A stretch of DNA of 64,000 bases from Asanoa iriomotensis. GTDB lineage: Bacteria; Actinomycetota; Actinomycetes; Mycobacteriales; Micromonosporaceae. The DNA is taken from positions 1 through 64,000 of the forward strand of contig NZ_BONC01000033.1 of the NCBI RefSeq assembly GCF_016862515.1, written 5' to 3'. The notes below the pieces were generated by a model. It was not told the DNA's origin and did no database searches. It saw only the letters and a program-made list of their open reading frames with translations. Positions 49,561-51,194 of this stretch are shown one piece after another (the first letter of the stretch is position 1; every line of letters starts with the position of its first letter). The position numbers and the translations under genes were made by a program.

Positions 49561-50232
49561 ATGGCACTGACCGACGAGGCGATCGACAAGATCAAGGGCA
49601 TGATCGTGTCCGGGGAGCTGGGCCCGGGCGCCCGGCTGCCCAAGGAGGCCGATCTCGCCGAACGGCTGGGTCTGTCCCGCAACTCGCTGCGCGAGGCCGT
49701 GCGGGCGCTCTCCATGATCAGGGTGCTCGACGTGCGCCAGGGCGACGGCACCTACGTCACCAGCCTCGAACCCAACCTGCTGCTCGACGCGCTCAGCTTC
49801 GTCGTCGACTTCCACCGCGACGACACCGTGCTGCAGTTCTTCGAGGTCCGCCGGGTGCTGGAGCCCGCGGCGGCCGCGCTGGCCGCCGAGCGGATGCTCG
49901 ACGACGACATCGACAAGCTCCAGCTCATCCTCGACGACCTCGGCGACGACCCGACGATCGAGGCGCTGGTCGCCAACGACATCGAGTTCCACCGCCAGAT
50001 CGCGGTCGGCACCGACAACGCCGTGCTGGCCTCGCTGGTGGAGGGGCTCTCCGGCCCGACCATGCGGGCCCGCATCTGGCGCGGGCTGACCCAGGAGGGC
50101 GCCGCCGCCCGCACCCGCGAGCAGCACCAGGCGATCGTCGACGCGATCGCCAGCCGCCAGCCCGACCTCGCCCGCTCGTGGGCGACCGTGCACATCGCGG
50201 GCGTCGAGGAATGGCTCCGCCGCGTCCTCTAA
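49561..50232 (+). CDS. GntR-family regulator, FCD (FadR) type
   Basis: A 223-residue regulator. The winged helix (KIKGMIVSGELGPGARLPKE, LGLSRNSLREAVRAL) is followed by an FCD domain whose metal-binding residues appear as DIEFHRQIA, REQHQAIVDAI and TVHIAG. FCD proteins sense carboxylic-acid effectors; here probably L-fuconate or its keto-deoxy product. GGAAGGGTGG precedes the ATG. It closes the fucose operon and is the natural candidate for the ACATCGGA operator at the operon start, although that link is inferred. Confidence 0.88.
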   Translation: MALTDEAIDKIKGMIVSGELGPGARLPKEADLAERLGLSRNSLREAVRALSMIRVLDVRQGDGTYVTSLEPNLLLDALSFVVDFHRDDTVLQFFEVRRVLEPAAAALAAERMLDDDIDKLQLILDDLGDDPTIEALVANDIEFHRQIAVGTDNAVLASLVEGLSGPTMRARIWRGLTQEGAAARTREQHQAIVDAIASRQPDLARSWATVHIAGVEEWLRRVL

Positions 50233-50251
50233 AAGAGGTTGCCCGCGCTGG

Positions 50252-50257
50252 TAACGT
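50252..50257 (+). promoter_or_regulatory. -10 box of the erm leader
   Basis: TAACGT, seven bases before the leader ATG at 50265. AAAAGAGGTTGCC at 50231-50243 resembles the AT-rich plus GTTG element of WhiB7 promoters, but its TTG is only about seven bases from this -10, so the match is not convincing. Confidence 0.4.
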
Positions 50258-50264
50258 TCCGCGC

Positions 50265-50300
50265 ATGGGAGCTTTGAACATCCGGATCCGCATCGCCTAG
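50265..50300 (+). CDS. Erm leader peptide (11 residues)
   Basis: An 11-codon reading frame, MGALNIRIRIA, ending in TAG 108 bases before the erm start. It is short, in the right place, and directly followed by hairpins, as in inducible erm genes where a drug-bound ribosome stalls on the leader and frees the methyltransferase start. IRIRIA has alternating basic and hydrophobic residues as seen in several stalling peptides, but is not one of the leader types I know. Its own ATG is seven bases after a -10 box. Confidence 0.65.
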   Translation: MGALNIRIRIA

Positions 50301-50402
50301 CGGCGAGCTGATCCGACCTTCCCTCTTTCAGCTCCGCCGCGTCCGGTCCGCTGCCGGTGCGGCCCCTCGTGCTGCCCGGCTCCGAATCCAAACCCGCGGA
50401 GC
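50301..50402 (+). promoter_or_regulatory. Attenuator-like hairpins between leader and erm
   Basis: Hairpin 1: CGGCGAGCTGA (50301-50311) pairs with TCAGCTCCGCCG (50328-50339), one bulged C. Hairpin 2: GCTCCG (50379-50384) pairs with CGGAGC (50397-50402), enclosing GGAG (50398-50401), the only Shine-Dalgarno-like sequence, seven bases before erm ATG 50409. GTGC/GCAC (50369-50372 and 50405-50408) could extend the second stem. The default fold would hide the erm ribosome binding site. Confidence 0.6.
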
Positions 50403-50408
50403 ACGCAC

Positions 50409-51194
50409 ATGTCTCGCCACAACCGTGGCCGCCACGAGCTGGGCCAGAACTTTCTCGTCGACACCTCGGTGATCGCCGACGTCGCGCGGCTGGTCGAAGC
50501 CGCGGACGGGCCGATCCTGGAGATCGGGCCGGGCGACGGCGCCCTGACCCGGCCGCTGAGCCGGCTCGGCCGGCCGCTCACCGCCGTCGAGGTCGACCCG
50601 CGCCGGGCAAAACGCCTCGCCGAGGAGATGCCCGGGCACGTCACCGTGCTCAACGAGGACATCCTGTTCCACCGGCTGCGCGGCAAGCCGGCGGTCGTCG
50701 TCGGCAACGTGCCGTTCCACATCACGACCGCGACGCTGCGCTGGCTGCTCGCCGCGCCGCACTGGCGGACCGCCGTGCTGCTGGTGCAGTGGGAGGTGGC
50801 GCGCCGGCGGGCCGGGATCGGCGGTGCGAGCCTGCTGACCGCCCGCATGTGGCCGTGGTTCGACTTCACCGTCCATTCGCGAGTGTCCAAACGCGCGTTC
50901 CGCCCCATGCCGACCGTGGACGGCGGGCTGCTCGTGGTCCACCGCCGCCCCGCGCCGCTGGTCGCCGAACGCGAGGCGTACCAACGTTTCGTGCATCAGG
51001 TCTTCACCGGTCGCGGCTATGGCCTGCGGGAGATCCTGACCCGCTCGGGCGGCGTGCCGGCACCCGTCGTGCGCGACTGGCTGCGCGCGCACCGGATGCC
51101 GGCCAACGCCCTGCCCCGCGACCTCACCGCGGAGCAGTGGGCTTCGCTGTGGGAAACAGTTCGGCACTCTGGACATAGGCCATCCCGGCGGTGA
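50409..51194 (+). CDS. erm: 23S rRNA (adenine-N6)-methyltransferase, Erm family
   Basis: A 261-residue rRNA methyltransferase of the Erm/KsgA family, expected to methylate A2058 of 23S rRNA and give resistance to macrolides, lincosamides and streptogramin B. Motifs: GQNFLVD at residues 12-18, EIGPGDGALT for S-adenosylmethionine, and GNVPFHIT near residue 100 as the NxPF catalytic motif. The C-terminal domain is the short Erm type (RFVHQVFTGRGYGLREIL). Expression appears inducible through the leader and hairpins upstream. The end overlaps the convergent VOC gene by 71 bases. The specific Erm class is not recognised. Confidence 0.9.
   Translation: MSRHNRGRHELGQNFLVDTSVIADVARLVEAADGPILEIGPGDGALTRPLSRLGRPLTAVEVDPRRAKRLAEEMPGHVTVLNEDILFHRLRGKPAVVVGNVPFHITTATLRWLLAAPHWRTAVLLVQWEVARRRAGIGGASLLTARMWPWFDFTVHSRVSKRAFRPMPTVDGGLLVVHRRPAPLVAEREAYQRFVHQVFTGRGYGLREILTRSGGVPAPVVRDWLRAHRMPANALPRDLTAEQWASLWETVRHSGHRPSRR

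Follow-up and report, generated by a model that had tools for sequence, protein, structure and literature searches.

The window, by which we mean the whole stretch of 64,000 nucleotides that was analysed, comes from an Asanoa (Micromonosporaceae), a soil actinomycete. The part of it considered here contains a regulator gene, a short leader frame and an erm gene, with the following features.

49561..50232, plus strand: GntR/FCD-type regulator gene (Pfam FCD and GntR above cut-off)
50231..50234, plus strand: A-run AAAA, overlapping the GntR stop codon
50249..50257, plus strand: predicted extended -10, TGG-TAACGT (from the TAnnnT spacing in relatives)
50265..50300, plus strand: leader frame MGALNIRIRIA*, with a predicted leaderless start at 50265 (from conservation, motif and spacing)
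50398..50401, plus strand: GGAG, ribosome-binding site of erm, 7 bases 5' of the erm ATG, predicted to be paired in the free RNA
50409..51194, plus strand: erm, 23S rRNA (adenine-2058-N6)-methyltransferase, 261 aa (NF000499, RrnaAD)

The frame at 50409-51194 is a true erm gene; its product passed the NCBIfam Erm equivalog model NF000499 with 263.9 bits, the cut-off being 212. The best-scoring named models were Erm(46), Erm(38) and Erm(55), all of them below their own cut-offs, and the nearest named relatives of the protein are those of Asanoa siamensis (86%) and A. ishikariensis (82%). The leader stop (50300) and the erm start (50409) are 108 bases apart.

The initial annotation of this DNA had placed TAACGT seven bases before a short frame MGALNIRIRIA, and the coordinates bear this out. 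The hexamer occupies 50252-50257, with TGG directly 5' of it, which gives the extended -10 form TGnTAnnnT; the leader ATG follows at 50265, seven bases past TAACGT, and the frame closes with TAG at 50298-50300. The leader had also been called unfamiliar; it proved to be a member of a large conserved set. As to the proposed stalling motif IRIRIA, comparison supported a motif of the arrest type, but its conserved core is the R-I-R at residues 7-9, two residues ahead of the stop, and not IRIRIA. Motifs of this +x+ kind are established as sites of macrolide-dependent arrest (PMC13410324, PMC6851288), and the short frame upstream of erm probably acts as a drug sensor.

Within the genus, erm was present in all six Asanoa genomes searched, and the same end of the GntR gene precedes the leader in each of them. 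The leaders read MGALNIRIRIA (in two genomes), MGMGTLFIRIRIA, MGAMSIRIRIA and MGAMSIRIRLA, while the sixth locus (L086) has ACG at the position of the leader start, yet keeps ...SIRIRLA*. In this locus the motif, the stop and the downstream RNA are intact despite the ACG, and a TTG occurs further within the frame. The letters between the -10 and the ATG are variable among the Asanoa loci; hardly any change is seen at the end of the frame and in the 15 bases that follow its stop.

For a wider comparison the best 80 of 288 relatives from named genomes were taken together with the Asanoa loci which, after two duplicates were removed, gave 84 distinct loci; the count thus covers close relatives only (best-segment identity of at least 49%). 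Dropped before this count were L002, an rsmA-like second match in the genome of the window itself, L083 (identical to L003) and L087 (identical to L004). A leader was defined strictly as TAnnnT, 6-8 bases, ATG or GTG, and 6-28 codons with [RK]x[RK] no more than three residues from the end; this definition was drawn up once these loci had been inspected for the first time, and it was applied to the controls unchanged. Such a leader was found in 80 of the 84 loci, and in none of the 84 reverse strands, 1680 dinucleotide shuffles and 1225 random places in the same loci. In the whole window the definition picked out one frame on the plus strand and none on the minus strand. The initial annotation had itself named the outcome that would speak against its reading, namely a leader frame lacking conservation while the hairpins vary; instead, the frame is kept in orthologues.

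The four loci without a strict leader retain a recognisable relative of it. L016 has KLRR in a frame that runs beyond the usual stop, L081 has TDFRR, L086 has ACG in place of ATG, as described above, and L031, inspected by eye, has R-P-W ten bases after TAACGT. In other Micromonosporaceae the gene is rare, as it occurred in 11 of 300 genomes including the six of Asanoa (E <= 1e-45); four of the five loci outside Asanoa carry a strict leader, and the fifth, with about 40% identity, does not. Among six named plasmid genes examined, strict leaders precede Erm(36), Erm(X) and Erm(55). At Erm(50) and Erm(51) a frame starts seven bases past TAnnnT, with GRLR far from the stop, and Erm(46) of pGA1 (L094) reads, by eye, T-E-F-R-R in place of R-x-R. 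A search for genes of the ErmE/H/O/R type (SHROVE) gave 36 of 394 genomes over the cut-off, and none of the 30 loci listed from it (L099-L128) has a strict leader. Under a looser definition, which asked for a frame that begins 6-8 bases past TAnnnT and contains [RK]x[RK], 22 of these 30 were positive, as against none of 120 control stretches; in these leaders [RK]x[RK] is usually not at the leader end.

The pattern TAnnnT-N7-ATG-N9..36-CGNNNNCG-N7-TAG has a single match in the 8.57-Mb genome, which is the erm leader, and none when it is run backwards; with TGA as the stop three matches appeared, all out of frame by length. Across 300 Micromonosporaceae genomes 51 contain the bare pattern, and the backwards control matches often too. 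Apart from one duplicate of G069, 55 matched stretches were checked, and 18 of these proved to be open in frame: five are leaders of this erm and 13 lie elsewhere. The bare pattern being so unspecific, the signal comes from place and conservation, and not from the pattern alone. These 13 frames, like the loss of the start codon in L086, are what could be expected if the leader were a chance frame and erm were constitutive; we find this hardly credible in view of the conservation across families, the blank result with all 1680 shuffles and the single match in the genome of origin. One of the Micromonosporaceae loci, L162, contains on the minus strand (3249-3214) a leaderless-looking frame MLLFFVRLRSA*, about 280 bases before an alpha/beta-hydrolase gene and not before erm. 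That this hydrolase might be drug-inducible is pure conjecture.

The 80 leaders are 10 to 27 residues long. In 74 of them two residues separate R-x-R from the stop, in four one residue, in one three and in one four, and the middle residue of the motif is I (27), L (18), T (13), P (10) or D (9), with F, M and Y found once each. Since the conserved residues are encoded by arginine codons, the leader could be thought to sense the supply of arginine in the way of amino-acid attenuators, and leaderless attenuators that sense cysteine are indeed reported from mycobacteria (PMC9031893, PMC4633059). In these, as in our proposal, a leaderless short frame controls the next gene via translation (PMC9031893; cited in PMC13236596); they respond to the supply of cysteine and not to a drug. 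The arginines of the erm leaders are, however, few and spaced as in the R-x-R macrolide-arrest motif, the second of them is a CGC codon in 78 of the 80 leaders, and the gene downstream confers macrolide resistance, which makes sensing of arginine very unlikely.

The spacing from the -10 to the start codon is 7 bases in 53 of the 80 loci, 6 in 16 and 8 in 11; the start codon is ATG in 67 loci and GTG in 13, and TG stands in the extended -10 position in 31. A Shine-Dalgarno (SD)-like tetramer 4-14 bases before the leader start was found in only two of the 80 loci, a count that has little room because the scanned stretch includes the -10. Given so few SD-like tetramers, a leaderless start is predicted, and the same claim of the initial annotation is upheld, as a prediction, by this comparison; the transcript is expected to begin on or next to the leader start codon. 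M. tuberculosis is an example of the bacteria in which leaderless mRNAs are common, and one article mentions, in its text and in a reference title, that ermE is translated without a conventional ribosome-binding site (PMC9031893).

It could be argued that the leader is real but lies in an ordinary 5' UTR, with transcription starting further upstream, for example by readthrough from the GntR gene, and with the leader being reached by scanning or coupling. The leader ATG comes only 32 bases after the GntR stop codon, and the scanner found no sigma-70 consensus promoter in 50150-50450, both of which would agree with such an arrangement. We nevertheless consider it unlikely, as TAnnnT precedes the start by 6-8 bases in 80 of the 84 loci and SD-like tetramers are so scarce. 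Moreover, in A. ishikariensis (L004) a perfect 11-bp hairpin, seen by eye, separates the GntR stop from the conserved TTGCCCGCGCTGGTACGTT block, and the block is kept, which argues that the promoter lies within it.

Of the 80 loci, 43 have AAA 33-42 nt 5' of the end of the -10 (mean of 5.4 and maximum of 11 in 50 rounds of shuffling), and in many of the 80 it is then followed by TTG, so that the arrangement resembles the AT-rich element 5' of the -35 in WhiB7-dependent promoters. In promoters activated by WhiB7/WblC this element lies immediately upstream of the -35 (PMC3905903). The A-run of Asanoa is 11 nt closer to the -10 than is commonest in the relatives, and in the window it is thus too close to be counted as such an element immediately 5' of a -35; because of this misplacement we did not settle on control of the window promoter by WblC/WhiB7. 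In the window (50231-50257) and in the five other Asanoa loci, the A-run is followed by 4-5 bases, TTGCCC, seven bases and TAnnnT. The gap between TTGCCC and TAnnnT is, in all six genomes, less than half of the usual -35/-10 spacing.

The RNA between the leader and erm can be divided into segments, of which the following are needed for further considerations.

50283..50297, plus strand: segment 1, the 3' end of the leader, predicted to pair with segment 2 (from fold and segment swapping)
50301..50315, plus strand: segment 2, likely anti-sequester strand, pairing with segment 1 or 3 (from covariation and swapping)
50328..50341, plus strand: segment 3, predicted to pair with segment 2 (open) or with segment 4 or the region of the ribosome-binding site (closed)
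50353..50363 and 50371..50380, plus strand: segments 4 and 5, conserved hairpin (from swapping, 58/66, and 91.7% of cells paired)

The stretch 50265-50440 folds with a predicted energy of -74.4 kcal/mol (z = -3.07 relative to 200 shuffles), and Rfam 15 gave no match at E <= 1 in 49900-50900. Where the initial annotation had drawn two hairpins before erm, the minimum-energy fold contains three local ones before the erm ATG, at about 50283-50315, 50336-50363 and 50379-50402, and an additional helix that joins the leader start (50268-50273) to 50330-50335. As had been claimed, the GGAG at 50398-50401 does lie in the last hairpin; it is the sole GGAG at ribosome-binding distance from the erm start, but not the only one before erm, another being present within the leader at 50268-50271. 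The predicted partners of the GGAG at 50398-50401 are in the region 50379-50384 and, in other states, in 50331-50337. The idea of a hidden ribosome-binding site is sustained in that the site is paired in the fold and a competing strand exists. The first hairpin, which had been taken for the anti-sequester partner, is not likely to act as such as a whole; this role probably belongs to its 3' arm, from 50301. Taken together, the interpretation given in the initial annotation is partly supported.

In the alignment, conserved blocks correspond to the leader end (1), CGGCGG just past the stop (2), CTCCGCCG (3), GCCGGTGCGGC (4), GCTGCCCGGC(TCC) (5) and GCGGAG (6). To compare native pairings with those of segments swapped between species, 66 sequences were used, out of 68 aligned from 81 stretches; 13 stretches longer than 150 bases were excluded from the alignment, and L013 and L086 were left out. 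Native segments 2 and 3 outdid the swapped mean in 65 of the 66, with a mean gain of 3.2 kcal/mol, and that of 4 and 5 in 58, with a gain of 2.2 kcal/mol. For 1:2 the native pairing was better in 48 (gain of 1.8 kcal/mol), a number also reached by 1:4, which is not part of the model. The other combinations gave 24-48 of 66 and gains below 0.8 (3:4, 43; 5:6, 40; 3:6, 38; 1:4, 48).

Covariation was analysed in 41 of 56 reference sequences. The structure composed of 2:3 and 4:5 has 9 pairs with two-sided changes, the shuffled mean being 3.9 and none of 500 shuffles reaching as high, with the reservation that related sequences can exceed shuffles without any structure. In this structure 88.2% of cells are paired, and helix 2:3 has changes on both sides in 6 of its 10 pairs. 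When the structure was slid by -3 columns, 9 two-sided pairs (27 cells) were likewise obtained, yet with 53% of cells paired, and the covariation score was 0.127 for 2:3 with 4:5 versus 0.098 for the slid control. The sequestering helices 3:6 and 5:6 showed no covariation beyond shuffles in the 41 sequences; that neither 3:6 nor the structure of 3:4 with 5:6 stands out is partly due to the fact that these blocks hardly vary. Helix 1:2 is suggested by the predicted fold and by segment swapping. A cascade of six segments, with 1:2, 3:4 and 5:6 in the closed form and 2:3 and 4:5 in the open one, was considered and dropped, as 3:4 and 5:6 were indistinct from controls.

One could expect that masking of the leader by a ribosome would expose the GGAG in equilibrium folding. 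This was not the case in the 79 of 80 loci that were scanned for accessibility and opening cost (L050 has no usable GGAG), in which the site was mostly paired in every state. The probability that the GGAG is unpaired in the free RNA was 0.02 in the window and 0.13 on average; the mean was 0.15 in the stalled state, with a rise above 0.2 in 4 loci and a fall in 5. Equilibrium folding, as modelled, therefore does not show a full switch, accessibility being low in all states. The energy needed to open the site depends, however, on the position of the ribosome. Its mean was 7.04 kcal/mol without a ribosome and 5.29 kcal/mol with the P site at x of +x+; it was 4.67-4.85 kcal/mol when the P site was one to three codons before this position, and 6.32, 6.88 and 6.96 kcal/mol one, two and three codons on; at the last of these positions the A site is occupied by the stop codon in most loci. 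The cost was higher in the free than in the stalled state in 68 of the 79 loci, the average drop being 1.75 kcal/mol, and its lowest value fell on the +x+ position in 6 loci and one to four codons earlier in 65. When the spacer from the leader stop to the GGAG was shuffled (237 shuffles), the curve became flat, at 5.16-5.35 kcal/mol. According to this curve, a ribosome that halts much beyond +x+ would no longer leave segment 2 free. The effect of position in these calculations is clear but modest.

This dependence of pairing on the ribosome position involves the ribosome-binding site of erm, which speaks against attenuation of transcription, where a stalled ribosome would permit an antiterminator to form and RNA polymerase to read on into erm. 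Mechanisms of that kind have been reported for actinobacterial ABC-F resistance genes (PMC12421871), and the GC-rich 4:5 hairpin is conserved. We set this explanation aside as improbable because the stretch 50150-50450 contains no terminator-like site with a U-tract.

Sequence and computation provide the leader itself, its spacing from TAnnnT, its conservation, the lack of SD-like tetramers, the covariation of 2:3 and 4:5 and the position-dependent drop in opening cost. We find it rather likely that erm is controlled by a translational attenuator with a leaderless, macrolide-sensing leader, for which the start of the transcript, the drug-dependent stalling, the switch and the induction are inferred as follows. 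Transcription would begin at or beside the leader ATG, so that the leader start would be the 5' end of the mRNA and would be read without a ribosome-binding site. When no drug is present, the ribosome would complete the leader, covering segment 2 when near the stop; once it is gone, segment 2 would pair again with the leader end (1:2), and closed structures would hence continue to hold segment 3 and the erm ribosome-binding site. If a macrolide occupies the exit tunnel, the ribosome would halt at R-I-R, with the isoleucine codon in the P site and the second arginine codon in the A site. It would then cover segment 1 and leave segment 2 free to pair with segment 3, whereby the closed structure around the GGAG would weaken, erm would be translated and 23S rRNA would become methylated.

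Control of erm genes by leader peptides is textbook knowledge, mainly from Bacillota, to which ErmDL belongs, a leader with an ordinary ribosome-binding site and in this respect unlike the one considered here. ErmDL is similar in its +x+ arrest motif, Arg-Leu-Arg, for which structures of stalled complexes were solved (PMC13410324). The tlrB (yxjB) gene of Bacillus subtilis resembles our locus in an arrest motif, there R-Y-R, at the C terminus of the leader and in a sequestered SD, and its drug-dependent stalling is proven; it differs in also employing transcription attenuation and NusG pausing, in encoding a different methyltransferase, in stalling with tylosin and not with erythromycin, and in having an SD sequence described for the leader peptide (PMC6851288). 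Leaders of the ermSV type in Streptomyces, MAANNAIINTGLGRGYAHSVRMRRGPGALTGPGSHAR and its kin, stand before erm genes of the SHROVE family with TAnnnT seven bases upstream, as here; they are longer, and their motif lies in the middle of the leader rather than two residues before the stop. They resemble the published ermSV leader. The whiB7/wblC uORF differs in controlling the transcription of a regulator, and no R-x-R leader is known to us from it. It is alike in being an actinobacterial uORF in which ribosome stalling induces the gene (PMC13236596).

A further parallel is offered by erm(X) of Corynebacterium and Bifidobacterium (L095), whose leader MLISGTAFLRLRSNR carries R-L-R close to its C terminus and begins seven bases past a TATAAT. 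It was proposed that the erm(X) leader peptide gene might act via erythromycin-inducible translational attenuation (PMC3350403), and for one of two loci a TATAAT was noted 5' of the leader (PMC10383950); in the available text of these two papers the leader is neither called leaderless nor placed in a conserved actinobacterial set. Our literature search, which left aside most subscription papers and the classic papers on ermSV and ermX, found no description of a leaderless macrolide leader or of such a set. Leader-peptide control itself is already known, and the arrangement is widely conserved among close actinobacterial relatives, but the leaderless conserved set seems to be undescribed.

It is conceivable that actinobacterial erm genes share one ancestral module, consisting of a leaderless leader, R-x-R two residues before the stop and a stop-proximal RNA strand that acts as the switch, a proposal in which we place as much belief as doubt. 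In such a module 70S ribosomes would begin the leader on a bare 5' end, and sensing might therefore continue where the drug or stress depresses ordinary initiation. Among known mobile genes it would extend to Erm(36), Erm(X) and Erm(55), with looser forms before Erm(50) and Erm(51); the ErmE/H/O/R clade would likewise belong to it in a looser form. If true, the proposal runs against the published view, as a survey from 2024 found small frames before many erm genes with no universal conservation of uORFs, and proposed independent origins (PMC11264731). Should the simple rule that finds the leader before 80 of the 84 loci prove right, inducible resistance in actinobacteria could be recognised from sequence, a drug sensor starting without a ribosome-binding site would be directly testable, and dozens of natural variants of the arrest motif would be available for study. 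In three leaders an acidic residue occupies the place expected for the first arginine (L055, TELRR; L081, TDFRR; L094, TEFRR). In L055 two modules, each made of a promoter and a leader, stand in tandem, with R-T-R in the first and the acidic form in the second.
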